From: an uncultured Roseiflexus sp.
GTDB lineage: Bacteria > Chloroflexota > Chloroflexia > Chloroflexales > Roseiflexaceae
DNA length: 49,175 nt
Assembly (NCBI GenBank): GCA_937935075.1
Contig: CALGYB010000105.1
Coordinates: 1 to 49,175, forward strand
Direction: 5' to 3'
Positions 17,701 to 42,437 of this stretch are shown one piece after another. A model generated the notes under the pieces. It was not told where the DNA came from. It saw nothing but the letters and a program-made list of their open reading frames with translations, and did not search any database. Position numbers and translations under genes: made by a program. How positions within the stretch are numbered: position 1 is the stretch's first letter; every line of letters starts with the position of its first letter.

Positions 17701-18036
17701 CTCGCCGAGGCGCTGTACGATCCCTGGACGCTCGAAGAACGCGAGCGTTTGCTGGCGCGTCATCTGGCATCAACAGCGACTCTTGCCAGATTACTGGTTG
17801 ATCGCGGCGAATTTGATGAAGCCATTGATCTGTGCGAGCACATCATTCGCCGCGACCGCGGTTACGAAGAAGCCTACCAGACCCTCATGCGCGCCTATGC
17901 CCGCGCAGGGAGCCGTTCTCAGGCGTTGCGCGCCTATGCGCGCTGCGTTCAGGCATTGCAGGATGAACTTGGGATCGAACCGCTCCCGGAGACGACCGAC
18001 CTCTGGGAGCGCATCAAGCGGAACGAGACCGTGTAG
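14752..18036 (+). CDS. STAND ATPase regulator with SARP/BTAD C-terminus
   Basis: A 1094-residue transcription regulator of the MalT/AfsR-like STAND class. It has a P-loop LAPAGSGKT (57-64) and a Walker B in ETLLILDDLHCADR (about 137-150). A MalT-like winged-helix and arm region follows, then a long TPR-type helical array (about 390-800). The C-terminus is an OmpR-type DNA-binding domain (LGRFRIFRG at about 846, then REWQREKARQLLQLLL and REQICAWLWPD) followed by a bacterial transcriptional activator domain (about 945-1094) with TPR repeats ending in GIEPLPETTDLWERI. Such proteins bind ATP and an inducer before activating promoters. It is divergent from the phasin gene, so PHA genes are possible targets. 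The 3' end overlaps panE by 23 bp, convergently. Confidence 0.85.
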   Translation: MLVSRVTGEFGAAVSLVSTVLLPRLEPPPQPARTIERPRIDGLLAAVADYPVTLVLAPAGSGKTVALTNFARHGGWPAAWCRLDSADTPLSLALHLMSAFRPMTGWDQVSLAAAHPVDLLDQLINALTALGDETLLILDDLHCADRRPELRVLIEHLIDRLPPRLHLVLVSREMPALASLPTIAARGELYRLSRAQLAFTDAEARDFFAAYGLPPHPIDADLNALARGWPLALRFFAAARIDSATPPDQPPTPERLHDIIAPHLDAYLAREVLGDLPFAVRTWVLGTALMRWIDEAACAAVAELANLHITVESLERWELFIETLPDGRRVYQPLQAASFARLAERDLPDWRAIHAQLGRYYAAHGDDHGAAHHFLAAERWDDAAAALSRMAFSGMSGSQAAALLDWIDQIPPAHRSRAVLLEARAVAERRLGRYTQAVELYRKAEELYRAQGDTEGQVRALRGQAEVYIDTVQPAPAAVLLKRAMKLLPRHRHAERATILSLQAENWINRGRADVSILIIAAAHREAYGKTAHTDAVGGYRRSAILSPRLLLRSGRLIEARRLLEEELGLEAGRARSECSLHRDPLLLLALIECMLGNGVRALALAQRGLLEAQRGDSPLTEAIAHMRLGHACLVTASSDEMARYHYSAALEIIEAVGIPRARAEVMLGLTLLEGHAGNLAAAEAYARDGLDRALDAGDEWTAALIWLAFGSVAAAAGDPRALEWLGEAYQRFVRGDDQYGQTVALLWEAHVHLQSGNEAEADRKIERLLELVGTHGFDGVLTTRTLFGPYDLAILVPLLLRGRSLRGATQRQATTAHRLLRQGFPSIAADDAVDIYHPGYTLRVYMLGRFRIFRGAHEIQAREWQREKARQLLQLLLTYRGMWLQREQICAWLWPDSEPAAAERQFKVTLNALNNVLEPRRPPRVAPFFIRRQGLAYSFAPSYGCWIDVDEFELRTAGAPGRDAEVEIRSRRTAFQLYRGDYLAEALYDPWTLEERERLLARHLASTATLARLLVDRGEFDEAIDLCEHIIRRDRGYEEAYQTLMRAYARAGSRSQALRAYARCVQALQDELGIEPLPETTDLWERIKRNETV

Positions 18037-19012
18037 TGCGCGTTACCGTATGTTCCAGCAGTTTGACGGCGGCATAGATCGCATCAATATGCGGCGTTGG
18101 CACGTTCGTCAGCCTGCCGAGTTCAGCCACTGCCCCCACCAGCGCATCCACTTCGGTTGCCCTGCCGGCCTCGATGTCCTGGAGCATCGAAGTCTTGTGC
18201 GCGCCAACCTGTTCGGCGCCGGCGATGCGCTGATCGATGGTGAGGCCGAACGTGATGCCCAATCGCTCGGCGACTGCCTGCCCTTCTTCCATCATAGCGA
18301 CGATCAGCGCACGCGCCTGCGGATGGCGGCAGATGTCGATCAGCGTGGCGCGTGTCAGCGCGCTGACCGGGTTGAACGCCAGGTTGCCCCACAGTTTGAT
18401 CCAGATGTCGGTGCGAATACGCGGGCGCACCGGCGCTTTCAGCCCTGCGCGCGCCAGTGTCTGTGAGAGATGCTGCACGCGCTCGCTGCGCGATCCATCG
18501 AGTTCGCCAAGCGTAAACCGGTCGCCTTCGATATGGCGGACGATCCCCGGCGCCTCCAGTTCGGTCGCCGGGTAGACGACACACCCGATAATGCGTTCGG
18601 TCTCGATGTTCGCAGCGATGACACCGTCGGGATCGACCGACTCGATGCGCCGTCCCTCGAACGGTCCGCCATGCCGCTGGAAGTACCACCAGGGAATGCC
18701 GTTCTGTGCCGGAACGACGATCGTTTCGTCGTGAAACAAGGGGCGGATCAGAGGCGCAACTCCCGGCAACTGATGCGCTTTGACGGCGACAATTACCACG
18801 TCGTGTGCGCCCGCGACTGATGGGTCGTCGGTTGCCAATGCAGGATGGACGGTCAACGTCGTCCCGTCGGACTCGATGAGCGTCACGCCGCGTTCGCGGA
18901 TGGCAGCCAGATTTGCGCTACGGGCGATCAGCGTGACCTGCTCACCCGCGTGCGCCAGCCGCGCCCCCAGATAGCCGCCGATCGAACCTGCGCCAACGAT
19001 ACAGATCTTCAC
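18014..19012 (-). CDS. panE: 2-dehydropantoate 2-reductase family (PanE/ApbA)
   Basis: A 332-residue NADPH-dependent oxidoreductase. The Rossmann motif GAGSIGGYLGARLA is at 7-20. VAVKAHQ (about 95-101), PAQNGIPWWYFQ and the C-terminal helical domain with IKLWGNLAFNPVSALT and SMLQDIEAGRATEVDAL (about 255-290) are all family hallmarks. The Lys in IWIKLWGN and the Glu/Asp in EVD are the usual catalytic residues. In the pantothenate pathway it makes pantoate. The ATG overlaps the stop of the CoA-ligase gene by 4 bp, so the two are one operon. That pairing is unusual for a pure vitamin gene, so it may act on another 2-oxo acid. Confidence 0.82.
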   Translation of the reverse strand: MKICIVGAGSIGGYLGARLAHAGEQVTLIARSANLAAIRERGVTLIESDGTTLTVHPALATDDPSVAGAHDVVIVAVKAHQLPGVAPLIRPLFHDETIVVPAQNGIPWWYFQRHGGPFEGRRIESVDPDGVIAANIETERIIGCVVYPATELEAPGIVRHIEGDRFTLGELDGSRSERVQHLSQTLARAGLKAPVRPRIRTDIWIKLWGNLAFNPVSALTRATLIDICRHPQARALIVAMMEEGQAVAERLGITFGLTIDQRIAGAEQVGAHKTSMLQDIEAGRATEVDALVGAVAELGRLTNVPTPHIDAIYAAVKLLEHTVTRTTRSRSA

Positions 19013-26851: not shown

Positions 26852-26992
26852 TCGGTACGAATGTGATCGCCTCTTTGTGGCGAAACGGGCGAAAATGTCT
26901 TTACAGTGCGCAAATGGCGGTATATACTGGGCATTGTGGTCGTAATCCTAGAGATGCGGTATGTTTATTCCGCCTCTTGCAAGCGAGTTCAC

Positions 26993-28135
26993 ATGATCGA
27001 CCTCGCCAGCCAGGCGCAAATACGCGAAGCCATTGCCGATTGCATTCGCGCTGATCGGCGCGTGCTCGACCGATTGCGCGCAGAGATTCGATCTTTGAAG
27101 CACACAACATGCCGCATTCAGCCGCGCGCCGCAACGTCTATTTCACTGATCGGCGCCGACGGCGGCAACTGCCAACTGCGCTTCGATCCCTTCCTGATCC
27201 ATCTGGTGCGGGTGGTGGACAGCAGTAACAATGAGTACTGCCTGGAAGCGGTGTCTCCCACAACCCCGATCCGCCGGCTCAACGAGCGTCAGTTCGCTCC
27301 CGATGGATCGGCGCGCACGGCGCTTGGCGAGATGATGCGCTTTCTGGGTGTTGACAGCCTGACAGAACTTTCGCCCATGATCCGGTCAGCCAACCAGGAA
27401 CGACCGGTTTCTCGCCGCTGGGTAGAGGCGTACCGCGAACTGGTCGAGTGGGCCGTCTTGTTCGCTATCCTGAAGAAGGATTTTGGCGCCGATACCCTGA
27501 TTGTTCGTGATGGATTGCTGCGCAGTGTGGTGTTCGCCAGAGGTTTGTTTCAGCGCTTGCTCCGCGGTATGCAAGAGCGCGTCGATGCGCACTGGAGGAA
27601 CAATCGTCGCCGTATCCACCTCGTCGGCGTCGCCAAGCACAGCAAGGTGCTGTCCCGCTACCGCCTGGCGATGGCGCTCGAGGGGGTGCTGCACACCGAC
27701 TACCCGGCGTATGTGGAGGTGCCGCGTGAGTTGGAAGAGAAGTCCTACTTCCGGGCGGATTTCGCCCCGGGCGGCGACTATGCTGGCGAAGGCGACGACC
27801 CTGCCGGGTATGTCGGCGGCAGGATGTTTCTGGTGAAGTTCGGGTCGTATCGCCACGACCCGGTCTGGCCCGTAGACATCTTCGAGCCACAGACAGGCAA
27901 TGCTCAGGAAATTCTTGGTTCGCTGCTCGCCGATGCCGTGAACGGATTTCCGATCCCCTCCTACCCGCGTTGCCTGCAGAAAGCGCACGAGCATGCGGCG
28001 CTGGTCGATTTTGATTTCGACGTATTGCAGGATTTCATCTACGAAGGGGTGCGATCGACCCTCGGCACAGAGGCAGGCATCCTGGACGCTTTTCAGCTTC
28101 TGGATCCTGATCCATCGCAACACCGGTACGAATGA
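26993..28135 (+). CDS. nurA: NurA-type 5'-3' nuclease
   Basis: A 380-residue protein of the NurA family, the RNase H-fold nuclease that works with HerA on DNA ends in archaea and some bacteria. The two metal-binding aspartates are in SLIGADGGNCQL (Asp56) and TLIVRDGLLRS (Asp173). HLVGVAKHSKVLSRYRLAM (about 209-230) is the family's 'K-x-S' region, and FLVKFGSYRHDPVW and DFDFDVLQDF follow. The stop overlaps the HerA start (ATGA), so the pair is translationally coupled. I choose ATG 26993; a GTG at 26906 would add 29 residues including a hydrophobic run, which NurA proteins do not have. Confidence 0.82.
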   Translation: MIDLASQAQIREAIADCIRADRRVLDRLRAEIRSLKHTTCRIQPRAATSISLIGADGGNCQLRFDPFLIHLVRVVDSSNNEYCLEAVSPTTPIRRLNERQFAPDGSARTALGEMMRFLGVDSLTELSPMIRSANQERPVSRRWVEAYRELVEWAVLFAILKKDFGADTLIVRDGLLRSVVFARGLFQRLLRGMQERVDAHWRNNRRRIHLVGVAKHSKVLSRYRLAMALEGVLHTDYPAYVEVPRELEEKSYFRADFAPGGDYAGEGDDPAGYVGGRMFLVKFGSYRHDPVWPVDIFEPQTGNAQEILGSLLADAVNGFPIPSYPRCLQKAHEHAALVDFDFDVLQDFIYEGVRSTLGTEAGILDAFQLLDPDPSQHRYE

Positions 28136-30246
28136 GGGCGCCCGCCATGGCAGACATCCATCTCTTTCCCAAAGATAAAGTCGTTGGCATCTTTCGCGGC
28201 TTCCAGCACGGCGGTCTGGAGTTCCACGCCGATCTGGTCCTGCCGTACCGGAATGATTTTCAGAGTATCCCAATGCACGGTCAATTTCTCCTCGTCCAGA
28301 TGGAGACGCCCGATGAGGCGGTGTTGGGTCGTATCGCCTCCTTCTCCTCAGAGGGGAAGCTGGCTTACGGCTCTGGCGAGGAGTTCAACCTGCGCGCAAT
28401 CCGCGAGGATCGCCCGATCCCGGAAGATCTGCGCGAGCAGTACCTGAAGTATCGGGTCAACATTCGGGTGCTCGGCGTCCTGCGGCGGAACGGCGCGGGA
28501 TTGACCTTCGTGCCCTCGCATCGCCGGTTGCCCCACGTCGGCAGTCGGGTCGCCTTTCCGAGCGATGAGGTCTTGCGCGAGATTGCCGGTCACTACATCG
28601 ATGGGGCGCCGATTGGTCATCTCGCGTTGGGTGAGTATGTCTACGCCGCCGGCAGCGAAACATTCGAGCCGCGCGAATGGATGCAGGTGCTCTCACCGGA
28701 GATACTGGTGCGCTTCCCGATTGAATCGCTGGTGTCTCGTCGCAGTTTTATCTTTGCCCGCGCAGGCTTCGGCAAATCGAACCTCAACAAACTGCTTTTC
28801 TCGAAACTCTATGAGACGACCCCCTTCGTCACCAAACGCGGCGGCAAACGGGTTCCGGTGGGAACCGTCATCTTCGATCCAGACGGCGAGTATTTCTGGC
28901 CCGACGACAAGGGACGACCGGGTTTGTGCGATGTTCCCGAGTTAGAAGACAAGATCGTCGTCTTTACTGAGCGGAAGAGTCCGAGTCCCTTTTACCAGTC
29001 CTTCGTGGCGGGCGGCATCAAACTGGATATTCGCCGCCTCCGCCCGTCCGATGTGGTTTCGATTGCGCTCGATCCAGAACGCCAGGAGCAGCAGAATGTG
29101 CGCAAACTGCGCGGGTTGCCGCAGGAGCGCTGGGAGATGCTGGTCAACCTGATCGATGCCAACGGCAACACGGCGCCGCTAGACGAGGTCTGTCGGCTGC
29201 TCGATCTCGATCCGCAGCGTCAGGAAGCCGAGGCAGTGGCGGCCAGAAGCAATATGACGGTGATTGTGAAGATGCTGCACGACAAGAGCAGCCAACTGAT
29301 GGATATGCTGGTGCATGCGCTCTCCGAAGGAAAACTGTGCATCATCGATGTCTCTCAGATGCGCGGCAGCCAGTCGCTCGTGCTTTCGGGCCTGATCCTG
29401 CGCCGGATCTTCGACCGGAACCAGCAACAGTTCACCGAAGCCGATCCCAGGACGATCCCAACCATCGCGGTCGTTGAAGAAGCGCAATCCGTGCTGCACG
29501 ACAAGACATCCGCCGCCGAGCCGTACATCGCCTGGGTCAAGGAAGGGCGCAAGTACGACCTGGGCGCACTGCTGATCACCCAGCAGCCCGGCAGCATTCC
29601 GGTCGAAATCCTCAGTCAGGGGGATAACTGGTTCATCTTCCACCTGTTGTCGGCAGCGGATCTCATCGCCCTGCAACGCGCCAATGCCCATTTCAGCGAC
29701 GACTTGTTGAGTTCGCTGCTCAATGAGCCTATTCCTGGTCAGGGAATATTCTGGAGTTCAGTTGGCGGCAAGTCGTATCCGGTCAGCATTCGTGTCCTGT
29801 CGTTCGAGCAGTTGTACTCGATGCGCGATCCTTCCTACAACCGCCCCGCCGGTCATACCTATGCCCAAACATTGCATCGCATCTTCGCCGGCGTTGGCCA
29901 GTCTGCAACCATCACGCGCGTTCCCGAAGCCGAAGATGAGTTGTTTCCAGAAGCAGCCGAAAGCGGGTCGATCGATGTCATGGCGACAATCGAACAACGC
30001 GCCATTGAAGCCCTGCGCAATAATAGCGAGATCCGCCAGAAACTCGAATCTCCAAACGGCATGCCCTGGTATGGGGTCCAACAGTTCTTGATCAACTGCT
30101 TGCCGGAACACCTGGAAGACCGCCGTCAATTCGCCTACAACCTGGTCTCGAAGGCGATGAACGCCATCTTCGGACCCAAGCCCGTGGGATGGGAGGCCTT
30201 CAAGAATCCGGCTACGGGCAAAACGTGGATCAGGGTCAATCGGTGA
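28132..30246 (+). CDS. herA: HerA-family hexameric DNA translocase
   Basis: A 704-residue FtsK/HerA-superfamily ATPase that pumps DNA for the NurA nuclease. The N-terminal HAS-barrel (about 10-130) includes HGQFLLVQMETPDEAVLGRI. Walker A is ARAGFGKSNLNK with Lys215. IFDPDGEYFW (248-256) is the HerA-typical sensor block, and Walker B is TIPTIAVVEEAQSVL with Glu449/Glu450. GALLITQQPGSIP (about 475-487) is sensor-like and QGIFWSSVGGK follows. A C-terminal helical extension (about 595-704) is longer than in archaeal HerA. ATG at 28132 overlaps the NurA stop; ATG 28147 (MADIHLFPKD) is equally possible. It is followed after 112 bp by the three-TM gene. Confidence 0.85.
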   Translation: MRAPAMADIHLFPKDKVVGIFRGFQHGGLEFHADLVLPYRNDFQSIPMHGQFLLVQMETPDEAVLGRIASFSSEGKLAYGSGEEFNLRAIREDRPIPEDLREQYLKYRVNIRVLGVLRRNGAGLTFVPSHRRLPHVGSRVAFPSDEVLREIAGHYIDGAPIGHLALGEYVYAAGSETFEPREWMQVLSPEILVRFPIESLVSRRSFIFARAGFGKSNLNKLLFSKLYETTPFVTKRGGKRVPVGTVIFDPDGEYFWPDDKGRPGLCDVPELEDKIVVFTERKSPSPFYQSFVAGGIKLDIRRLRPSDVVSIALDPERQEQQNVRKLRGLPQERWEMLVNLIDANGNTAPLDEVCRLLDLDPQRQEAEAVAARSNMTVIVKMLHDKSSQLMDMLVHALSEGKLCIIDVSQMRGSQSLVLSGLILRRIFDRNQQQFTEADPRTIPTIAVVEEAQSVLHDKTSAAEPYIAWVKEGRKYDLGALLITQQPGSIPVEILSQGDNWFIFHLLSAADLIALQRANAHFSDDLLSSLLNEPIPGQGIFWSSVGGKSYPVSIRVLSFEQLYSMRDPSYNRPAGHTYAQTLHRIFAGVGQSATITRVPEAEDELFPEAAESGSIDVMATIEQRAIEALRNNSEIRQKLESPNGMPWYGVQQFLINCLPEHLEDRRQFAYNLVSKAMNAIFGPKPVGWEAFKNPATGKTWIRVNR

Positions 30247-30358
30247 CCGCCGTCCCACGTTCGACATGGGACATGCGCCGTGGTGCGCCGTTGCACCGCA
30301 ACGGCGCTGCCTGATGTATATGTGAGGGTGCATATGTCCGCAGAAGGGGGGAACGCTC

Positions 30359-32713
30359 ATGCTGGCATGCTGGGTGGTGCCGGCGCTCCTCACGGTTGCC
30401 GTTGTCCTCTTCATGTGGCTCGACGCGGCAAAATACCCCGACACAACGGCGCAGCGCCAGAAGGATCGACTGTGGCCCGCCGTATTCGTGAGCATCTCCG
30501 TCGCTCTGGTGTCCTATTCCGTGCTCGTCAGGGTTGAGGAGGATGTCGCCGCCGCGCAGGCATTCGACACAATCCAGACGCCGCTTGCCGGGCATCATCT
30601 CCTCATCCGTTACCCGCATACGCTCCGGTTCGACGCGCCTGAGACCGATCCACCGACGCTGACCGTTTGGGTCGAGCGCAACGCCGGCGCCGCACCACTG
30701 ACCGTCACTGTCGAACTGAGCAGCGCCACGCTCCTGTCCGTCGATGCCGCCGGAATGTCGGGCGAGCCGCGTCTGACATTGGGCGTCAACGGCGGATCGC
30801 GGTTGCAAGACGTGCGTCTTGGACCGCTGCGGTCGAACAGCGATGAGCGAGTGGTCGTTGATGTGACCGTCCGTGATGCAAGCGGGAAGGAATTGCTGAC
30901 GCAGCCGCTGACCATCGCGCGTGAGACGCGGGCGGCGTTCTACTGGCGTGTGTTTACGACTCGCTTCTTCGGCGATGCCGGGCTGGCGCTGGCAGTGGCG
31001 TCAGCCGTGCTCGGCATTGGCTGGCAACTGCTCAACGAAGGACGGCAGACGCGCGTCGGTCAGCAGCGTGAGCGCATTCGAGAACTACGCGATCTTTTTG
31101 AGCGTGACCTGATTGAATGGGCGCTTGTGTCCAGAACGCTGGAACAGGAAGCCAGGAAAGGCTGGGAGGAACAGGCGCGCCAGGAATTGCGCGAGGCTCT
31201 CAGGAAGCAAAACCAGCAACTGACAACCACGGCGACGCAGGTTCGCGTGAAACGTCTGTTGCACGACGCAGCCGAGTACTATCGCGCTGGCGATGTTCAG
31301 CGTTGCGCCACCGCCCTCGATCTCGTCATACGGGCGTATGCGTCGAAGGACGACCGCCTCACGGATCTGCCGCACCGGTTGTCGGACGCGCGCACGGCAG
31401 ATAAGCAACAGGCTGAAACCATCCTGCGCGTCTGTGGAGTTCTGCTCAATCGCTTCTGGTTGGACGCAAATGAACTCGCAGCGGCGGCGCTCGAGGCAAT
31501 GGCATCGCAACCTGATGATCATGAAGCGAAACAATGTCTGTTGCATACGATTCGTGCGCCAGGCAATGAAGCCGACGCTGCGCTTAGCAAACTGGCGGTC
31601 AACGATCCCCGGATACGCGGGCATCTGACGAATCATTTTCCCTGGACCTTCGCGTGGGCGCCAATCGCGCCTGAGCCGGGAAGGGTCTTGCGAACGCGAT
31701 CGGTCACTCCCTGGTTGGAAGCCAACGGGCTGAAGATGCACCCATTCGACGCACACGAGTTGCAGGCTCACCAAGCCTTTCTGGAGCGCGTCACCCTGCC
31801 AGCGGCGCAACGAGCGGCTATAATACAGTCACAATTGCTGGTGGCTGTCGGACTCCGATTTGATCGCTATGTCGCTGCGATTGCACTCTATCACGAACTG
31901 CACCAGCCAACCGCACGACAGATGCCGGTCATGGTGACGCTGTTCGACCACGACACCGCAGGACACCCCGCGCTGTTGAGCCGTGTCGCGCAGGCGGCGG
32001 GAAAAACGTGGGTCCGACTGATCGCCGATCAGCCGGGGGTGTTGTTGTGGTTGCCGGAAGATGAACAGGCGCTGCTGGCGGAATGGTTCGTGTGGTTGAG
32101 CGGTTCGCCGCAGGCAGTGCGGCAACAACTCCGACGCGCCGGGTTGCAGAGCGGCATTCAGGAGCAGATCGTTCTTCGTCAGCTTGATCCGTTGCTGTCC
32201 GGTGCTGATCGATCGACGCCGCATTCCGACAGGTTGCTCAACTGGCTGGCGATTCGTCCGCCGGAAGTCAGTCATATGTGCGTGATCGCCATCGATCACA
32301 GCGAAAATCAGCGTGCCGGACTGCTTGCCGAACTCCTGTTGAAGACGCAGGATGCCGGAGTGGTATGGAAGTTGTTCACCTCACCGACGCGCAGGCGAAT
32401 GGTCGAGGAGGTTGACGGTATTGCTCTGGAATGGTCTGAACACGAGTTGCTCGCACTGCTGGACTTCGCGGTTGACGGTGCAGGCGGACCCGGGCAAACC
32501 CTGATCGATCTTCTGGAGATGGACGATCCTGCATTGAACGAAGAAGAGTTCCTGCGCACCGTGTTGAAGCACGCGCATGGTTCGTTCGAGCGCGCACTGG
32601 CGATCTGCCGGCGCGCGCTGGCGCATCATCTCGATACCGTCTCCGATCCGAACGATCCGAACTATCCTTTCCTGAACGAGCATGATTTCAAAGCTGCCCT
32701 GCAGCGCACGTGA
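30359..32713 (+). CDS. Three-TM membrane protein with large cytoplasmic region
   Basis: A 784-residue protein I cannot assign to a known family. Visible parts: TM1 at about 4-22, TM2 at 38-57, an outside-facing beta-rich domain at about 75-190 (LTVTVELSSATLLSVDA, RVVVDVTVRD), TM3 at 205-224, then a charged coiled coil at about 230-300 (QRERIRELRDLFERDLIEW, QARQELREALRKQNQ). The remaining 480 residues are predicted cytoplasmic and mixed alpha/beta, with the acidic ELLALLDFAVDGAGG near the end. GGGG before the ATG is a good ribosome site. The layout, periplasmic beta-sandwich joined through a coiled coil to a large cytosolic part, suits a sensor or anchor. Three bp separate it from the winged-helix NTPase, so the two are coupled. 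Confidence 0.65.
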   Translation: MLACWVVPALLTVAVVLFMWLDAAKYPDTTAQRQKDRLWPAVFVSISVALVSYSVLVRVEEDVAAAQAFDTIQTPLAGHHLLIRYPHTLRFDAPETDPPTLTVWVERNAGAAPLTVTVELSSATLLSVDAAGMSGEPRLTLGVNGGSRLQDVRLGPLRSNSDERVVVDVTVRDASGKELLTQPLTIARETRAAFYWRVFTTRFFGDAGLALAVASAVLGIGWQLLNEGRQTRVGQQRERIRELRDLFERDLIEWALVSRTLEQEARKGWEEQARQELREALRKQNQQLTTTATQVRVKRLLHDAAEYYRAGDVQRCATALDLVIRAYASKDDRLTDLPHRLSDARTADKQQAETILRVCGVLLNRFWLDANELAAAALEAMASQPDDHEAKQCLLHTIRAPGNEADAALSKLAVNDPRIRGHLTNHFPWTFAWAPIAPEPGRVLRTRSVTPWLEANGLKMHPFDAHELQAHQAFLERVTLPAAQRAAIIQSQLLVAVGLRFDRYVAAIALYHELHQPTARQMPVMVTLFDHDTAGHPALLSRVAQAAGKTWVRLIADQPGVLLWLPEDEQALLAEWFVWLSGSPQAVRQQLRRAGLQSGIQEQIVLRQLDPLLSGADRSTPHSDRLLNWLAIRPPEVSHMCVIAIDHSENQRAGLLAELLLKTQDAGVVWKLFTSPTRRRMVEEVDGIALEWSEHELLALLDFAVDGAGGPGQTLIDLLEMDDPALNEEEFLRTVLKHAHGSFERALAICRRALAHHLDTVSDPNDPNYPFLNEHDFKAALQRT

Positions 32714-32716
32714 GCA

Positions 32717-34102
32717 ATGGAACCAGATCGCCACAGCATCGCTGCTGAAGCGCTCGATGCACTCGCGGCAGAGCGCGAACCACATCTGCAACCGGCGGTG
32801 TTCGTCGAGCCGCCGCAGTATGCAGCGTATGCCGGTATGCGCTCGTTTGTGGTATTCGGTGATAGCGGCTCAGGCAAAACAGCCCTGCGGCTGGCGCTGA
32901 TGCGCCGGACAGCGCCGGCGGATGCGCCGCCGACGCACCTGGTCGTTCAATGGCAGCCCGATCCGGTCGAGGGGGTGCAGGGCAGCCCCGCCGTGCGCCT
33001 TTTCGTGCGCCAGGCGCTGGAAGCCTGCGCCACGACACTGCTCACGACGTTCGCCCGCCACCCGTATCTGTTTCACAACGCGCCGCCGACCGCGCAGACG
33101 GCGTTGCACTGGTTTATCCAGACCTTCGCAGGTCAAGATCAGCATCATCTCCTTGCCGTCATCGAAGAGGAGGGCGGGTCTGCGGACGGTGTCTCCCTCT
33201 CCCGTCACCTGATCACCAATCCCGCGTCGCCGGCGCTGCACGCCGACGTGGCCGAACAACGCATCATTGCGCTCCTGACCACCACGCTCCAGCGGATGGG
33301 CATGCGCGGCGTGTGGGTCATGGTCGATGGGTTCGAGCCATGGCTGCACAGCGCCGCGCCTGCCCTATCGGATCTGTTGCTGGCCATTCTCTCGACGCTT
33401 GAACTCTTCGACCTGAACGGCTTTGCGATCAAGATGTTCGCTCCACACGCGCTGGAACCGATCATCACCGGCAGTTGGGGCGCGATCAAAGGGCGCGTCG
33501 ATCTTTACACTCTCTCCTGGACGCCCGATCAGCTGGCACTGATCACCGAACGCCACATTGCGGCGAAAATCGGCAGACCGCAGGCAACGCTCGGCGATCT
33601 GTGCGCGGCGGATCGTGATGTGTACGCCTGGCTGCAACGCTACGGCGGCAGCACACCGCGCGGCTGGCTCAAACTCATCCGCCCGCTGGTCGATGCCTTC
33701 CTGGCATCCGGCGCGTCGCAGCCCCTGTCGCGCGATGCCTGGCGTGTGGTGCAGCGCACCAATCCTCCCCGCCTCTCCATCGATCTCGCAACCGACCGCG
33801 TCTTCATCGGCGATGCCGAGGTCAGCGGATTGCAACCGCGCCCCTACCGCCTGCTGCGCTACCTGTACGAGAACCGCACGCGGCGTGTGCCGCGCAGCGA
33901 ACTCTACTACCGCGCCTATCAGGGGCTTGCCGAAGAACCGCGCGCCCACGACGACCGCGGCTGGGAAGACCCTGCCGATTGGAACAATGTGCTCGACAAT
34001 GCGCTGTTGCGCCTGCGCAAAATCATCGAACCCGATCCGCGCCATCCGGTCTATATTCTGACCGACCGCGGCTGGGGTGTGAAACTGGAGAATGTAATAT
34101 GA
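32717..34102 (+). CDS. P-loop NTPase with C-terminal OmpR-type winged helix
   Basis: A 461-residue fusion. Residues 30-345 are a STAND/AAA-like NTPase: Walker A GDSGSGKT (48-55), Walker B GVWVMVDGFEPWL with Asp204, and the motif IKMFAPHALEPI (238-249) before VDLYTLSWTPDQL. Residues about 352-460 are an OmpR/PhoB-type winged helix: ATDRVFIGDAEVSGL, PRPYRLLRYLYENRTRRVPR, and LLRLRKIIEPDPRHPVYILT ending in RGWGVKL. The recognition helix suggests DNA binding controlled by NTP. It is a paralogue of the next gene, which has the same NTPase core and motif but no winged helix. It starts 3 bp after the membrane-protein stop. Confidence 0.72.
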   Translation: MEPDRHSIAAEALDALAAEREPHLQPAVFVEPPQYAAYAGMRSFVVFGDSGSGKTALRLALMRRTAPADAPPTHLVVQWQPDPVEGVQGSPAVRLFVRQALEACATTLLTTFARHPYLFHNAPPTAQTALHWFIQTFAGQDQHHLLAVIEEEGGSADGVSLSRHLITNPASPALHADVAEQRIIALLTTTLQRMGMRGVWVMVDGFEPWLHSAAPALSDLLLAILSTLELFDLNGFAIKMFAPHALEPIITGSWGAIKGRVDLYTLSWTPDQLALITERHIAAKIGRPQATLGDLCAADRDVYAWLQRYGGSTPRGWLKLIRPLVDAFLASGASQPLSRDAWRVVQRTNPPRLSIDLATDRVFIGDAEVSGLQPRPYRLLRYLYENRTRRVPRSELYYRAYQGLAEEPRAHDDRGWEDPADWNNVLDNALLRLRKIIEPDPRHPVYILTDRGWGVKLENVI

Positions 34103-34352
34103 CCGTCGCCAGCATGCATGTGAGGTTCTGGTGAGAATGCGGTGATGCAGCTGATAGCAGTGTGTGAATGGGCGGCATGGCGCGTGTAGTATACTGACCA
34201 TTGGCGTCACATTCGACACGTTTGGGACGTGCGTCCGCAAGACAAGATTTGTCTGCGATTGTGAGGTCAGAGCGCTGTGCGGCAGGATGCTATCGGAGTT
34301 GCGGCATTGATGGCTATGGTGTGCAAAAACATTTTGTACCTTTGGATTGTTT

Positions 34353-35552
34353 ATGAACGCTTTAGAAGACAATCATCTCTCAGCACAGACCCTTTCCGCC
34401 GACTGGTTTCGGCGCATTGGTCTGCGGTTCGACCCCTACGTTCACCTGGAAGCCTCGAGTGATCCGCACCTCTCTGAGTATACGGTCAACCTCGACATCT
34501 TCCGCACCGCCTGGGATGCTGCGTCGGCGGTCATTTTTGCGCCGCCGGGAGGCGGCAAAACGGCGATGCGCGTCGCCGTCACCCGTACCTGCTGGTACGA
34601 CATCGGCGGCGCCTATCCTTTCCCGCTGCCGTATAACCTGGGTGCAGCGCCGCTGATAGGCGCGCCGCCAACCGCTGCGCAGCATCTGCGCCTGCTGCTC
34701 GAAGCCGGAACATGCGCGTTGCTCACCGGTCTGGCGTTTCGACCGGAACGGTTGTTGCGGGCTGCTCCCGCCGATATTCGCGCTATCGTCGGCTTGCTCC
34801 GCGCCGGGTTGCCCGGTCCGCTCGAGTATTACCTGGACGTGCTGCGTGAAACCGGCACGCCTGCCGGGTTGACCCCGCTTCTCGAGCGAACCTATGCGCT
34901 CACCGCGCCGCCGCTGCCGGAAGCGCTCCGCCGTTTCTGCGATATCGTTGGGCGGATCGACGCCGATGCCATGCGTGGGCAACCGGAGGACCTGTTCAGT
35001 ACCTTCGTCGATCTGACGACCAGCGCCCTGGGATTCGGTCACGTCCTGATCCTGATCGACGGCGTCGATGCCATTTACGAGAATCAGGCAGACAACCGGC
35101 TGGCGCTGCAATGGGTCGCCGATCTATGTGATTATTCCAAAATGTGGCGAGAACGGAACGTTTTCATCAAACTCTTCGCTCCTGACATCATCGAACCACA
35201 CATTGCCGGGTATCTCCAAACGCACGCCATTGCCGCACAGATTGCCCGTATTGTCTGGGACCCCGATCTTCTGGCGGAACTGCTGCGCAAACGCATCTTT
35301 GCCGCCTCCGACGGGCGGTTCGAGTCGCTCGATGCCATCAGCACACCGGCGCTCACCGATGTGGAACGGCAGATCGTCGCTGCGATCACGCCGCTGCCGC
35401 GCGTCGCGCTTCAGGTGACGCGACGCGCGCTCCTGCACTACGCAGCACGGATGGAAGAGGGACAACTCGATGAAGATGACATACGCTGCGCAATCAACTG
35501 GTATCAATTCCATGCGGCGCCGCGCCTGCAAGGGTCGGCGTCGCGTGCTTAA
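34353..35552 (+). CDS. P-loop NTPase paralogue without winged helix
   Basis: A 399-residue NTPase. Walker A APPGGGKT is at about 63-70, Walker B VLILIDGVDAIY with Asp236. IKLFAPDIIEPHI (about 272-284), then IVWDPDLLAELLRKRI, aligns directly with IKMFAPHALEPI and LSWTPDQLALITERHI of the preceding gene, so the two come from one duplication. The C-terminus (about 300-399) is helical and ends without a DNA-binding domain. The 250-bp space before it holds no gene; a TATACT at 34190-34195 may mark a second promoter. The start could be TTG 34347 or ATG 34353; neither has a clear ribosome site. No reaction beyond NTP hydrolysis can be claimed. Confidence 0.68.
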   Translation: MNALEDNHLSAQTLSADWFRRIGLRFDPYVHLEASSDPHLSEYTVNLDIFRTAWDAASAVIFAPPGGGKTAMRVAVTRTCWYDIGGAYPFPLPYNLGAAPLIGAPPTAAQHLRLLLEAGTCALLTGLAFRPERLLRAAPADIRAIVGLLRAGLPGPLEYYLDVLRETGTPAGLTPLLERTYALTAPPLPEALRRFCDIVGRIDADAMRGQPEDLFSTFVDLTTSALGFGHVLILIDGVDAIYENQADNRLALQWVADLCDYSKMWRERNVFIKLFAPDIIEPHIAGYLQTHAIAAQIARIVWDPDLLAELLRKRIFAASDGRFESLDAISTPALTDVERQIVAAITPLPRVALQVTRRALLHYAARMEEGQLDEDDIRCAINWYQFHAAPRLQGSASRA

Positions 35553-35637
35553 GAGTCGTAGTCAACCCTGTCTGGAAGGAAGCGTCCGCCGGTTTTTGCG
35601 GCGAACGCTGCTTCTGACTCAGGGAAGGGAGGATGGT

Positions 35638-37035
35638 ATGACTCTGCCTCGTCCCCCGGCATACCGTCCGGGGCTGTTTGTCAACCGCGAAAGTGAAATC
35701 GGACGGGTGAGGGATGCCCTTCAGGACATAGCAGGCAGGAAAGCGGAACATGCGCGGACGATCGTGTTTCGTGGCGAACGTGGTTTGGGCAAAAGCTGGC
35801 TGGCGCTCCACCTCCACCGGCACGTTTTGAAAGAGGAAATGCCGCATCTGTTGTCGCAGCATCGCATGGTGTCGTTGCTGATCAATCTGACCCCGCCATC
35901 TGACCATTCCGTTGACGAAACCGCGCCGGAGGGAGAGTGGCATGTCACCCGCGAAGAAGCCGCGCGCATCGCTGCTCAAGACGATCAGGAGTTCGAGCCG
36001 ATTCTCCGGCGCTTGCTGAACTGGCTGGCGGAACAACTGGACGTTATCCGCGCCCCGCATGCTCCTGTGCGCGATCTCGCCTCCTGGCTGGCAAGGGATG
36101 TCCAACAAAAACTGGAGAAAGAACCGAACCTCTTGATTTGTCTGACTCTCGATTCGGTCTTTGAAACGAATCAGGTGTTCCTCGATGCCCTGGAACGGCA
36201 CGTTCTGGGGGCGCTGGCGGCGCTGCCGCGGGTGCTGATGATCATGACCGGGCGCGGACGACCGTATCTCTGGAAGTCGCCCTACCTGCGCGCCGAGCGC
36301 GAAGAACAACCGCTCAAACCCTTCATCGCCGACGAGGTCGTCGATCAAATCCGTCGCGCGCTGCGCGATACGCCTGATCTTCCTGAAACGGTCAATACCT
36401 TATCAGGCGACGCCCTCCTCCGACTGGCAGAACGGGTGATCGCTACCGGTGGCGGATACCCGCTGACCAATCATCTGCTGGCGCTTGCGCTCGTGCAGCA
36501 GGCGCTCGACGTGCTGCCCGACGATCAGCGCGACAATGCAGAGCGACTGACGAGCATCCTCGATCAGACGCAGATCGATGCGGCAATTCTTGAACAGGTC
36601 GCCGACCGACTGCTGGACGTCATTCCGACAGACGAACGTCATCGTCTGCGCGAGGCGTTCGAGGCGCTCTGCGTGCTCAAAGACGGGTTCCGCGAGAATG
36701 AAATGCCCTATCTCCTGGCGGCGCGGCGCAACACAACGCCTGAAGAACCGGAATATGCGCTGCCGGCAATACGCAACCTGCGTGATCGTCTGCTCGAAAC
36801 CAACCTGGTGCGCTGGCGGGACAAACGCTACGCGATGGACGAAGCCGTGCGCGCAGTGCTTGAAGCATACCTGAAGCTCGCCCGCCCTGACGTATGGAGG
36901 CGTCTGCACGAAAGCGCAAAGCAGGTGTATGGGGAATGGGGAGAGAAGTACCGCAGCGCATACTACCGTGATCGGGCTGCGTTTCACGAACGGGTGCTGA
37001 GTGAAGCAACCGACGCCATGGTTAACGTGAGATGA
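35638..37035 (+). CDS. STAND-like P-loop ATPase
   Basis: A 465-residue ATPase. Walker A GERGLGKS is at 46-53, and a hhhhD-type strand NLLICLTLDSVFE serves as Walker B. PALPRVLMIMTGRGRPYLWKS is a sensor-like strand. The C-terminal third (about 330-465) is helical, with ERHRLREAFEALCVL and winged-helix-like RDKRYAMDEAVRAVLEAYL, as in the HETHS/winged-helix arm of STAND proteins. ATG 35638 (MTLPRPPAYRPGL) is chosen because GGAAGGAGG precedes it; the upstream frame to 35470 overlaps the previous gene and has no family sequence. It ends 13 bp before the STAND-TPR gene, giving a tight pair. Confidence 0.68.
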   Translation: MTLPRPPAYRPGLFVNRESEIGRVRDALQDIAGRKAEHARTIVFRGERGLGKSWLALHLHRHVLKEEMPHLLSQHRMVSLLINLTPPSDHSVDETAPEGEWHVTREEAARIAAQDDQEFEPILRRLLNWLAEQLDVIRAPHAPVRDLASWLARDVQQKLEKEPNLLICLTLDSVFETNQVFLDALERHVLGALAALPRVLMIMTGRGRPYLWKSPYLRAEREEQPLKPFIADEVVDQIRRALRDTPDLPETVNTLSGDALLRLAERVIATGGGYPLTNHLLALALVQQALDVLPDDQRDNAERLTSILDQTQIDAAILEQVADRLLDVIPTDERHRLREAFEALCVLKDGFRENEMPYLLAARRNTTPEEPEYALPAIRNLRDRLLETNLVRWRDKRYAMDEAVRAVLEAYLKLARPDVWRRLHESAKQVYGEWGEKYRSAYYRDRAAFHERVLSEATDAMVNVR

Positions 37036-37048
37036 AGAGGAGGTTCCC

Positions 37049-40000
37049 ATGCATGAAGGTGAACGCTACACCGGCGCGTGGGCAACGCCTGACCTGATCG
37101 GGCGCAAGGAAATCCTCCGGCGGATCGATGAGGCGATCCACGCTGCTGCCGGTCTGTCGGTCGTGGCGCTGTATGGACCCGGCGGCATCGGCAAGACGCG
37201 CATTTTGAGCGATGCTCTGAAACGACAGACCGGCGGCGCCATTTACACCGCACAACGCCTGATCGACCTGTACGACATTCGCTACCACAGCAGCCTCGAT
37301 CTTGCCGCTGCGATCTGCGATGCACTCGATGTTGCAAAAGGGAGAGACTTTCGTCGATTTGAGCAGGCGCGCGATCAGCAGCGCAAAGCGCAGGCTTCTG
37401 GGGATGTCAGGCAGATTGCAGCATTGACCAGAGAAGCATTGCAGGCTTTCGCCGACGATTTCAATTATTTCTCGCAGAACCGGCGTGTTGTGATTGCCCT
37501 CGACACTCTCGAACGCATCGCCTATGGCGCCGGTGAACAACGTCCACCCTTTCAGGTTGCGCCGTCGTGGGAGTGGCTGGTTGAGTCGTTGCCCGCCTGG
37601 GGGAATGTCACGCTGCTGGTCGCCGGTCGCAATCAGATTACCCATCTCTTTCCAGATCTTCAGCAGCAAACCCATCTGACGCCTCTCAAAGTCGAACCAT
37701 TTACCGAAGATGAAACGCGAGATTACCTCGATGCTGTGGCGCAGGCAGCCGAAAACGCCGGTGAACAAGCGGTGGCGGACACATTACGCAGCCTGACGCC
37801 GGAACGCAGGCATCAGGTGTATCGTTACTCAGGCGGGTTGCCGATCCTGCTTGCGCTGCTCGCGGACTATATCAGCATTGCCGGGTTTGGCAAATTGCCG
37901 CCGATCGTTGAGACCGAGACCGACCCGGCGCGTGCCCGCGAGGTGCTCGAAGAACAGTTGATCGCGCGCATGATGGACTCACGGACGATCAGGGACACCC
38001 TCCAAATGCTCGGACGCGCGCCGAAAGGCGTCGATGCCGGATTGCTGGCGCACCTCCTCGATATCTCGCCCGACGAAGCACGCCATCGCCTCGCCATGAT
38101 CGAGCGTCTGTCCTTCGTCAAGGTGCGTAGCGAGCGTTACTTTCTGCACGACGAGATGTACGCCATTCTGCACCGGCAGATTTATAGCGCGCCGGACGAT
38201 GCCCCTGAAGCGGAGCGCGTCAACACTGCCATCATTCAATGGTATGCACAACAGATCAACGAGCGCCGCGAATCCCTCGATGAACTGTACGCGCCGATCG
38301 AACAACCGCGCCGCGCTGTCAGTGTTGCGCCGCGTATCGACTATGAGCGTATTGCAGCGGTTCAACAGGAGATCCAGCAACTGCTGATCGATCAACTCTC
38401 CTATCATCTGCGCCTTGATCCGCTCGAAGGATTCCGTGAGTATTTCCGCGATACCTTCTACACCGTGTTCACCGGCAATACCATGCTCGACATTCAGTTG
38501 CAGGCGGAACTTCTGGCATTTCTCGACGAACGTGATCGCTCAGGAGAGCAAGCGTCCATCGACGGTCTGGAGCGCGAGGTTGTACAGGGTGTTACGGCTA
38601 TTCGCCCGGTTGCCCGTCGCTATGCGGAGAACGATTACGATGGCGTCGTATGGGAAGCGCAACGGCTGCGGCAGGAACACCCTGGTCTTCTGGCGACGGC
38701 AGGGCGCACGACCGAAGCGGCGCTCGATGTGTGGGAGGCGCTCGCGCGAACCGGCAGGGCGAAGGAAGAATACCAGGACAGCGCCGAAACGGATCGACTG
38801 CTCGCAGCCGCTGAAGCGATTCTGGTTCCCGTCATTCGTTCGGCGTCTCCCGACGTCTCCGAGGCGCGGCGGTGGCGCGCCCACAGCCTGCTGGCGCTGG
38901 CGTACCACGCGCGCGGGTTCAGCCTGCGCGCTCGTGGTCAGACCCGTCCCGCAATCAAGGCATACCGCCGCGCTGCTGTGCTCTGGCGGCAGGTCGATGT
39001 GCCGATCTGCCTGGCGTGGACCCTCAACAATCTCGGGTTTGTCGAAGTGGAAGAAGGAAATAGCGCCACTGGATTGGCGCTGATCGAAGAAGCGCTGGAG
39101 ATCCGCAAGCAACTCGGCGCGCGTGCGCTGATTGGCACTAGCTACTCTGCGCGCGCGCGAACGCTCATCTATGCGGGTAGATATGCAGAAGCGAAAGAGG
39201 ATGCCGAACGCGCCCTGCGCCTGTTCCATGCGGTCGAGTATCGTCTTGGCACGGGGCTGGCGCTGCGCAACCTTGCCGAAGCATTGCGCCGGTCGGTCTC
39301 CAGAGGCGACGATCCGCAGGAACGGATGGCCGTGCTGCGTGAAGCGCGCGATTACGCAAATGAGGCATACTACATCTTTGAAGGCATTGGCGACCGGTTG
39401 CGCCAGGTCGAGTCGTTGATCGAAGAGGGGTGCGCCCTGCGCGATATGAGCGGTGTGCTCCGTGATCATCCGCTGCCAGGCGAAGACCTCACCGAGATGG
39501 CGCAGGACAGCCGTAACGCACTCGAGCAGGCGGCAACCCTGGCGCAGCAGATCGGCAACACCTTTCGTCACGTTGATGCACTGGTCAACATCGCCTATCT
39601 CGGCGCCAACGTTGGACGATTGGATCTTATCGAAAGCGGACTGGCGCGCGCGAAGGAGGCGATCCCCGGCGAGTATGTGATAACCGAGCGGGGACGGCCC
39701 GATCCAGCGGGGATGGGCATCCGCAACCGCCATCTGTTCACGCAACTTGCCAGGATCCATATGCTGCTCGGCGGGCGGCTGTTTGTCGCTGTTCAGGATA
39801 CAAAGTCTCAGAGTCAAGAGTCTCTTCGATCAATCGCCGAGGCATATGCGCGTTTCGCAGACCTGTTCGGCGCAGGAGCGCCTGTAGTCATCACATCCGC
39901 AGATGATACGCTTGATCGGGCGATCCGCCACTACACCCTTGCCTTCGAGTACGACCGACTTTACAACCCGCTCGACGCCAGGGTACGACGTGCGCAGGAT

Positions 40001-40153
40001 ATGGTGTACAACAAGATCAAGGCGCTCGGCGCCGATCAATTGAAAGTCGTTGCGGACGCCATTAAAGCCGTTGAGCGCGACTATCGCCTGGGCAGATCTG
40101 CAATGCGCGACTTGCTCGAAAGCCGCACGCTGCTTTTCGAGGAATTGGCATAG
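37049..40153 (+). CDS. Large STAND ATPase with TPR array
   Basis: A 1034-residue signal ATPase of the STAND class. The NB-ARC/NACHT-like Walker A is GPGGIGKT (43-50), Walker B is RRVVIALDTLERI (about 145-157), and the GxP-type motif is YSGGLPILLALLADYI (about 258-273). A winged-helix segment at about 315-380 (VDAGLLAHLLDISPDEARHRL) comes before a helical linker. TPR-type helix pairs run from about 560 to 870 (TLNNLGFVEVEEGNSATGLALIEEAL, YSARARTLIYAGRYAEAKEDAERAL, RNLAEALRRS). Such proteins stay closed until the repeats sense a signal, then oligomerise. No catalytic effector domain is visible. The last 73 bp overlap the convergent radical SAM gene. Confidence 0.75.
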   Translation: MHEGERYTGAWATPDLIGRKEILRRIDEAIHAAAGLSVVALYGPGGIGKTRILSDALKRQTGGAIYTAQRLIDLYDIRYHSSLDLAAAICDALDVAKGRDFRRFEQARDQQRKAQASGDVRQIAALTREALQAFADDFNYFSQNRRVVIALDTLERIAYGAGEQRPPFQVAPSWEWLVESLPAWGNVTLLVAGRNQITHLFPDLQQQTHLTPLKVEPFTEDETRDYLDAVAQAAENAGEQAVADTLRSLTPERRHQVYRYSGGLPILLALLADYISIAGFGKLPPIVETETDPARAREVLEEQLIARMMDSRTIRDTLQMLGRAPKGVDAGLLAHLLDISPDEARHRLAMIERLSFVKVRSERYFLHDEMYAILHRQIYSAPDDAPEAERVNTAIIQWYAQQINERRESLDELYAPIEQPRRAVSVAPRIDYERIAAVQQEIQQLLIDQLSYHLRLDPLEGFREYFRDTFYTVFTGNTMLDIQLQAELLAFLDERDRSGEQASIDGLEREVVQGVTAIRPVARRYAENDYDGVVWEAQRLRQEHPGLLATAGRTTEAALDVWEALARTGRAKEEYQDSAETDRLLAAAEAILVPVIRSASPDVSEARRWRAHSLLALAYHARGFSLRARGQTRPAIKAYRRAAVLWRQVDVPICLAWTLNNLGFVEVEEGNSATGLALIEEALEIRKQLGARALIGTSYSARARTLIYAGRYAEAKEDAERALRLFHAVEYRLGTGLALRNLAEALRRSVSRGDDPQERMAVLREARDYANEAYYIFEGIGDRLRQVESLIEEGCALRDMSGVLRDHPLPGEDLTEMAQDSRNALEQAATLAQQIGNTFRHVDALVNIAYLGANVGRLDLIESGLARAKEAIPGEYVITERGRPDPAGMGIRNRHLFTQLARIHMLLGGRLFVAVQDTKSQSQESLRSIAEAYARFADLFGAGAPVVITSADDTLDRAIRHYTLAFEYDRLYNPLDARVRRAQDMVYNKIKALGADQLKVVADAIKAVERDYRLGRSAMRDLLESRTLLFEELA

Positions 40154-41907: not shown

Positions 41908-42119
41908 CATACTAACTTACGGTCAGTCAGCCGCGATATTCGCGTGTTCGTTGGGCAAGGCGCAACGGTCAACGCGCGCCGGCAGTCCGTGTCGTGGACG
42001 CCTGATTGCGCAGTGGCATCAGCAGCCCCGGCGGGGCTTTCACTTGCTCAGCGAGGGCTTTCGCCCGCAGCGCCACGGCGCCCCGGCAGTGTTGTACGAA
42101 TGACCGCACATTAGTATAA
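41908..42119 (+). repeat. Dispersed repeat copy C
   Basis: It begins CATACTAACTTACGGTCAG and ends GAATGACCGCACATTAGTAT. The two ends are inverted relatives: the right end read back is ATACTAATGTGCGGTCATTC. It contains the common core CAACGGTCAACGCGC and GCGAGGGCTTTCGCCCGC. The part 41644-41907 has no gene that I can see. Confidence 0.8.
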
Positions 42120-42437
42120 CTTGCGGTCAGTCAGCCACGATGTTCGCATGTTCGTTGGGCAAGGCGCAACGGTCAACGCGCGCCGGCAGTCCGCCTGGCG
42201 GCTGAAGCCGCAGGCTACGGGCGCCAAGCCCGCCTGCGCGGGCTGCACCGGGCGATACCGGATTCTTTGCTCAAAAACCATTATTGACTTCACTGCAAAA
42301 AGCAACCACGAAGGTCACAAATGGACACGAAGGAAATGCTCTTCATTTTATGAACCTTCGTGCGCTTCGTGTCCTTTGTGGTTTAAGCCTTTGTGCAGTG
42401 GACTCAATATTGTCCAAATGACCGCGTATTAGTATCA
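42112..42437 (+). repeat. Dispersed repeat copy D, carrying a nested foldback element
   Basis: It overlaps the end of copy C by a few bases (TAGTATAACTTGCGGTCAG), so the two are head to tail. The left half matches the family up to about 42285. The right end GTCCAAATGACCGCGTATTA appears only after a 118-bp foldback element. The interior between 42186 and 42285 is replaced by GC-rich sequence. Confidence 0.75.
42286..42403 (+). mobile_element. CACGAAGG foldback element, nested
   Basis: From GACTTCACTGCAAAAAGC to GCAGTGGAC it carries the full palindromic set ACCACGAAGG ... CCTTCGTG ... CCTTTGTGGT. It is inserted into repeat copy D. No clear target duplication is visible here, unlike the copy at 21897-22016. 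Confidence 0.8.

Follow-up and report, generated by a model that had tools for sequence, protein, structure and literature searches.

A three-TM protein of an uncultured Roseiflexus as a candidate effector-carrying, ATPase-dead subunit of a conserved multi-gene NTPase operon

The window analysed here is a stretch of 49,175 nucleotides from an uncultured Roseiflexus sp., a hot-spring bacterium, and the gene of interest is the first of five that follow one another on its forward strand. An initial annotation had left the product of this gene, hereafter slot 1, as an unassigned membrane protein. The genes of the operon and the parts of the slot-1 protein are as follows.

30359–32713, + strand: slot-1 protein, 784 aa, with an ATG start and an in-frame stop upstream at 30323
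30359–30556, + strand: TM1-loop-TM2 of slot 1, residues 1–66 (hydropathy and AF2)
30557–30928, + strand: putatively extracytoplasmic beta-sandwich-like domain of slot 1, residues 67–190 (AF2 and VIA-align 2)
30929–31105, + strand: TM3 and juxtamembrane helix of slot 1, residues 191–249 (AF2 and within-genus identity)
31691–32710, + strand: putative pseudo-ATPase domain of slot 1, residues 445–784 (profile-profile comparison, alignment and AF2 fold match)
32717–34102, + strand: WH, a P-loop ATPase of Sll1717/DS41_1 type with an OmpR-type C-terminal winged helix, 461 aa (Trans_reg_C, 7.6e-8)
34347–35552, + strand: NTP2, a P-loop ATPase of the same family as WH with intact Walker A, 401 aa (DS41_1_antiphage, 6.4e-15, under the cut-off; AF2)
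35470–37035, + strand: NTP3, a third NTPase, AAA_16/nSTAND6-like (sub-threshold), 521 aa as called
37049–40153, + strand: TPR, an AAA_16 NTPase with C-terminal TPR repeats, 1034 aa
40081–41700, − strand: radical SAM/SPASM protein, a conserved neighbour with an N-terminal DCAC motif

A NurA-like and HerA-like pair (26906–30246) is flanked by a PIN-domain gene and by slot 1. Elsewhere in the window, the domain content of a 1094-aa AAA_16-TPR-BTAD protein (14752–18036) is that of a STAND-type transcriptional activator, and a 77-nt direct repeat (41913–41989 and 42117–42193, 95% identical and 204 nt apart) closely precedes the radical SAM gene. No Rfam match was obtained in the 49,175-nt stretch.

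The 784-residue open reading frame is real, since slot 1 is kept at 45–66% identity over its full length in four more genomes of the genus, which argues against a chance ORF; in a fifth genus genome the first 122 residues are present before the contig ends. TM segments were placed by hydropathy at about residues 1–27, 37–60 and 202–226, and the AF2 model has helices at 2–24, 29–66 and 191–249, the last of which holds TM3, together with nine strands spanning 69–188, a helical array at 251–426 and an alpha/beta domain at 449–784. The two approaches agree with the three TM segments and the beta domain described before, with the domain, given as about 115 residues, measuring about 120 and lying between TM2 and TM3. 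The AF2 model, built from a 13-row alignment, has a mean pLDDT of 82.7 and a moderate pTM of 0.60, so that the relative placement of its domains is unreliable. The coiled coil assigned behind TM3 stands in so far as a single long helix runs out from the membrane, with more helices behind it, but a heptad scan, a crude method, gave no clear heptad register directly behind TM3. The cytosolic part comprises about 560 residues rather than the roughly 480 first estimated.

Since the neighbouring proteins are soluble and some relatives are TM-free, the C-terminal domain is presumably cytosolic, and if so, the beta domain is extracytoplasmic. The loop charges agree with this placing, loop 23–38 having four K/R versus two D/E and loop 59–66 having no K/R versus three D/E. 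Residues 74–189 match 6voa_D with Z 9.2 (VIA-align 2), and the domain resembles many Ig-like sandwiches, which is uninformative on function. No credible family was returned for the Roseiflexus slot-1 protein by Pfam, NCBIfam and PADLOC scans; Foldseek with the whole model gave zero matches at E 0.001, and phmmer against solved structures gave chance matches only. Within the genus, TM3 and the juxtamembrane helix are the best-conserved stretch (88, 88, 68 and 68% identity), compared with 38–63% for the beta domain and 41–48% for TM1–TM2. The conservation of TM3 fits a packing of TM3 helices upon assembly, and also a signalling relay.

The large cytosolic region had been described as free of any recognisable catalytic motif, which is literally correct, yet its last 340 residues appear to be a decayed ATPase. 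The slot-1 profile (13 sequences) aligned over residues 445–784 with the profile of NTP2 (11 proteins) at an hhalign E of 6.1e-20 and a probability of 99.2%, and with that of 14 WH proteins at E 1.1e-13, against E 0.10 for NTP3 and E 0.093 for TPR as negative controls. The homology is clear only once distant homologues are added to the alignments; shallow, genus-only alignments gave E 0.051 against NTP2 and E 0.13 against WH, neither of which is significant. Slot-1 proteins taken singly match the NTP2 profile (hmmsearch), L082 for example at 3.1e-29, and NCBIfam DS41_1_antiphage, L143 for example at 6.4e-22, under the model cut-off. By eye, the end of slot 1 shows the same landmarks as WH and NTP2, namely an initial HPF, a hydrophobic strand that closes with D, a KLF, a W and a final helix. 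These sequence comparisons show the C-terminal 340 residues of slot 1 to be a paralogue, now decayed, of the adjacent WH and NTP2.

The predicted fold points to the same family. Residues 451–784 of the AF2 model superpose on Cdc6 (1fnn) with Z 12.1 over 235 residues at 4.8 Å, and the C-terminal region also matches ORC subunits and TnsC; the NRC4 resistosome is matched with Z 10.2 (residues 466–784) and CED-4 with Z 9.4 (residues 427–784), all by VIA-align 2. Because of the hhalign, hmmsearch and fold matches taken together, residues 445–784 are assigned, on sequence and model, as a degenerate AAA+ domain of ORC/Cdc6-STAND type. The best Foldseek match of the AF2 model of NTP2 is archaeal ORC2.

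The extent of the decay was read from one alignment of 34 slot-1, 32 WH and 29 NTP2 proteins. The Walker A lysine is kept in all 29 NTP2 proteins and in 28 of the 32 WH proteins (the other four have two Arg and two Asn), and in only 5 of the 34 slot-1 proteins (L064, L137, L141, L143 and L146). The remaining slot-1 proteins have Arg (12) or Gln (1) at this position, or the site is erased (16). It is erased in all five genus slot-1 proteins, the Roseiflexus 784-aa protein included, which has no GxxxxGK[ST] at the aligned column. This protein retains Lys671, Trp692 and, as its Walker B residue, Asp646; it has Ala704 where every NTP2 protein has Arg, and the lid/sensor PR pair, invariant in WH and NTP2, is replaced by F743-E744. 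In the related loci L059 (7447–8826) and L061 (2–1084), the WH protein, too, has its Walker lysine changed to Asn, and therefore the dead subunit may vary.

WH and NTP2 score below the curated cut-offs of the families that they resemble. WH matches DS41_1_antiphage at 1.1e-14, under the curated cut-off; the DS41_1_antiphage/ATPase_Sll1717 scores are 54.4/38.4 bits for WH and 55.1/42.3 bits for NTP2, with curated cut-offs of 370/75, and the Roseiflexus slot-1 protein matches neither model. Pfam has an nSTAND2 model, and no nSTAND2 match is among the Pfam matches of the operon proteins at E 0.1.

The coupling of slot 1 to the NTPase-winged-helix gene, from which it is separated by a 3-nt gap, was borne out by the relatives as well as by the homology of its C-terminal domain with WH and NTP2. 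With the profiles of six neighbour genes run on the retrieved locus neighbourhoods, slot 1 and WH were co-stranded in 31 of the 31 loci where both were placed. A search for slot-1 homologues beside the same NTPases found slot 1 directly abutting WH in 29 of these 31 loci, at −50 to +87 nt; in the other two, L066 and L145, an NTP3-like gene separates them (L066 1498–2649; L145 6287–7525). On a reading of the three resulting tables, 29 loci have the full order slot 1-WH-NTP2-NTP3-TPR with all genes on the same strand, a count that includes L145, with its additional NTP3-like gene, and L014 (G047), in which slot 1 is in three frames.

Several loci depart from this order. In L014 (8410–10852) the breakage is confined to slot 1, with WH, NTP2, NTP3 and TPR being open, and L072 has a second TPR gene (15795–18881). 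L063 has slot 1-NTP3-TPR-rSAM without WH and NTP2, and in the divergent relative L068 a WH-like gene is found upstream of a TM-NTPase gene, an NTP3-like gene and TPR; both are possible sub-types of the operon.

The radical SAM/SPASM gene comes after TPR in 25 of the 27 loci with at least 1.3 kb beyond TPR, being missing in L012 and L056. Its orientation is convergent in the genus and in G047, and codirectional in the other loci. Each of the ten N-termini examined (Roseiflexus, L010, L025, L057, L058, L059, L063, L065, L067 and L069) has at least one DCAC motif or a CxC motif resembling it. No convincing candidate for a peptide precursor gene was found near the rSAM gene in the Roseiflexus stretch and five other loci, and the DCAC segment is possibly a peptide substrate fused to its own maturase.

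As for distribution, the slot-1 profile finds slot 1 in all six genomes of the genus and in one other among 158 genomes of the class. The NTP2 scores fall into two sets, with the operon form at 259 bits or above and the others at 155 bits or below, contig-end pieces aside, and the operon form is patchy, being present in 24 of 396 genomes of another class, that of G124. A scan of genome contigs with exact peptide patterns, which other groups may escape, gave 13 loci, all of them in Chloroflexota as judged by title; the WH profile had no match in the same collection, and NTP2 had none in viral contigs. One match, in G324, was rejected as a false positive, namely RelA as named from its sequence by eye.

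The N-terminal module is the variable part of slot 1. It was classified in 34 slot-1 proteins from 33 genomes, leaving out the broken gene of L014 (G047), the contig-end fragment of L015 (G002) and the divergent L068; L141 and L147 were assigned to slot 1 by position and motif, with no profile match. Modules with TM segments make up 27 of the 34, and the remaining ones are TIR (2), caspase (2), EAD7 (2) and, in L146, none recognised. The TM modules comprise 19 with and 8 without an ectodomain, the TM calls resting on a hydropathy threshold and the ectodomains on reading of the sequences; in L072, counted among the 19, the TM module is a separate ORF. Over the ectodomain/TM3 region the slot-1 profile matches G447, G432 and G426 at 1.4e-10 to 2.0e-9, and by sequence the TM+beta module is homologous between classes.

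The soluble modules are readily named. TIR_2 is found in L057 and L075 at 1.3e-26 and 1.2e-24, and Peptidase_C14 at 9.5e-17 in L058, where it is fused, and at 2.7e-14 in L066, where it is an ORF directly upstream. The slot-1 caspases retain both the His motif (SGHG/SSHG) and the Cys motif (DCC), taken here as the catalytic residues. EAD7 (1.7e-10 and 1.5e-12) is N-terminal in L143 and inserted in L144.

In a tree of WH and NTP2, the loci L072 (TM+beta) and L075 (TIR) are sisters with 100/100 support, and they share 66% identity in WH, 72% in NTP2 and 41% in the slot-1 pseudo-ATPase. Well-supported branches force at least two changes each for TIR, caspase and EAD7. The tree has weak deep branches and long rows, and it was used for these two readings only; label shuffles on it gave no module clustering beyond chance. 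By these sequence comparisons, the N-terminal module of slot 1 is exchangeable while the rest of the operon is unchanged.

EAD7 is an adaptor that is held to recruit effectors by like-like contacts, according to the part of PMC7159879 available to us. Its presence in slot 1 therefore predicts more EAD7 effector proteins in the same genome, and these were found in G595 and G679, the genomes with EAD7 in slot 1, which have 12 and 5 EAD7 matches, respectively, slot 1 counted. Among ten comparison genomes seven have none, G751 has one above the cut-off, and G255 and G520 have one weak match each; the Roseiflexus genome has no match. Four of the ten partners scanned are fusions of EAD7 to CHAT, TIR, trypsin plus TIR, or NB-ARC, and in the others EAD7 is joined to a propeller repeat or to parts in which no domain could be named.

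What, then, is the function of a dead ATPase with a changeable head? The initial annotation had suggested that slot 1 could pass a membrane signal to the NTPases. The direction is probably the reverse, because the TIR, caspase and EAD7 modules that replace the N-terminal module in relatives hold effector or adaptor positions in STAND-type immune systems. In NLR-type STAND proteins, the effector or adaptor is N-terminal, the NTPase switch is in the middle and the repeat sensor is C-terminal. By analogy, NTP3 would seem to have the role of a switch and TPR that of a sensor, the latter assignment being probable. The operon is laid out like NTPase-switched immune systems, and its membrane module is therefore most likely an output and not an outside sensor. 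We consider it fairly probable that, within a multi-gene AAA+/STAND NTPase machine, slot 1 is the subunit that is dead as an ATPase and carries the effector; it is probably the trigger end of an antiphage machine.

In the mechanism that we propose, the roles would be spread over the genes, with TPR as the sensor, NTP2, WH and NTP3 as switches and slot 1 as the output carrier. The TPR-STAND protein would sense an invader cue, upon which WH, NTP2, NTP3 and slot 1 would form an NTP-dependent hetero-oligomer, ORC-like or apoptosome-like, the NTPase fold of slot 1 being retained for assembly alone. Assembly would cluster the N-terminal modules and thereby switch them on. In Roseiflexus, the clustering may push the TM3 helices together so that the membrane is breached or depolarised, which is the least certain step because the conservation of TM3 fits a signalling relay too; in relatives, the same clustering could activate TIR or caspase, or bring in effectors linked to EAD7. 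A modified peptide may be the product of the radical SAM/SPASM gene, as has been put forward for the peptide systems that accompany VMAP-ternary systems.

Three observations speak against an effector role: TM modules are the majority (27/34), most of them with an extracytoplasmic beta domain; the ectodomain is more elaborate than a pore requires and is compatible with sensing; and slot 1 is in all six genus genomes, unlike a typical mobile defence cassette. Slot 1 might instead be a membrane receptor, whose beta ectodomain senses an outside or envelope cue relayed by TM3 and the helical array to the NTPases, with the TIR, caspase and EAD7 versions being other input or adaptor modules. The ectodomain in 19 of 34 proteins is in line with this, as is the fact that TM3 and its stalk are the best-conserved part (68–88% within the genus), as in transmembrane signalling proteins, and the winged helix of WH could provide a transcriptional output. 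We nevertheless rate a receptor as unlikely, given that the slot is also occupied by TIR and caspase, with their motifs present, which are outputs elsewhere, that eight TM versions were classified as lacking an ectodomain, and that the beta domain (38–63%) is less conserved than TM3. Still less of a case can be made for a membrane tether, in which the N-terminal module does no more than hold an NTPase complex to the envelope, where it would serve regulation or housekeeping; the winged-helix subunit and the presence of slot 1 in 6/6 genus genomes would suit it, and the patchy distribution (24/396 genomes in one class), the soluble TIR and caspase versions and the EAD7 coupling make it decidedly improbable. 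It is hardly credible that slot 1 is a partner of the NurA-HerA DNA-processing pair, which lies on the same strand 112 nt upstream and in which NurA (sub-threshold) and HerA-like domains were found, as five other genus genomes have no HerA match and PIN and LytR_cpsA_psr genes occupy the upstream position in relatives.

The effector reading also draws on a published precedent. In the nSTAND2 two-gene system (Kaur et al. 2021, PMC8195603, of which a part was available to us), an active STAND stands beside a STAND with eroded NTP motifs that is fused to variable effectors, and a toroidal hetero-multimer is predicted; it is because of the analogy with this system that Roseiflexus slot 1 is read as a membrane effector. 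The likeness, an inactive STAND with a variable effector beside an active one, is of architecture only. The nSTAND2 effectors named there are GT4 and HEPN, whereas TM, TIR, caspase and EAD7 are found here; that system has two genes and this one five or six; and the available part of that source names neither a winged-helix nor a TPR-STAND nor a radical SAM partner. The VMAP-/iSTAND-type MoxR-vWA ternary systems (Kaur et al. 2020, PMC7159879, likewise in part) also have swappable TIR, caspase and EAD modules, an inactive STAND component and a radical SAM/SPASM accessory that goes with a TPR-bearing AP-ATPase, but the Pfam scan found no MoxR or vWA among the Roseiflexus operon proteins. As judged from these partial sources, the nSTAND2 and iSTAND systems are the closest published kind.

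Other known systems share single features. A core EAD together with EAD-fused effectors, the feature of EAD-coupled conflict systems, is present in G595 and G679 and not in Roseiflexus. DS-41 is listed among validated antiphage systems in the accessible part of the DefensePredictor report (PMC13092281; NCBIfam NF053860), and WH, NTP2 and several slot-1 proteins match the DS41_1 model, all of them far under its 370-bit cut-off. Like the NLR/apoptosome proteins NRC4 and CED-4, slot 1 has a putative N-terminal effector or adaptor on a STAND fold; unlike in them, its NTPase domain has decayed catalytically and ATP binding falls to subunits encoded by genes of their own. With ORC/Cdc6 complexes it shares the fold (1fnn, Z 12.1) and the mixture of active and inactive paralogous subunits, which the part of PMC8195603 at hand describes for ORC; unlike them, it has no replication-initiation context, and its N-terminal modules are membrane or immune-type. 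The six-gene operon was not found described in the literature text searched, which includes the available parts of PMC8195603, PMC7159879 and the BREX paper PMC12839542, and it may be listed in supplementary tables.

Taken as a whole, the operon could tentatively be read, at somewhat less than even chances, as a Chloroflexota-wide, NTP-switched immune machine of six genes, with a hetero-oligomer of paralogous, ORC-like ATPases, an ATPase-dead socket for a killing domain (a membrane module, TIR, caspase or EAD7 adaptor) and its own rSAM/SPASM peptide arm, whose substrate is possibly fused as DCAC motifs. An unassigned membrane protein thereby becomes a readable socket of a conserved operon, and roles are suggested for five other genes. 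Since close relatives differ in having a TM or a TIR module, a simple exchange of domains could put the effector hypothesis to the test. Furthermore, the slot-1 series of lysine kept, lysine changed to arginine and site erased, beside active paralogues, is a natural experiment, and bears on why immune NTPase complexes retain dead subunits, a question common to iSTAND, iSTAND2, nSTAND2 and BrxB.
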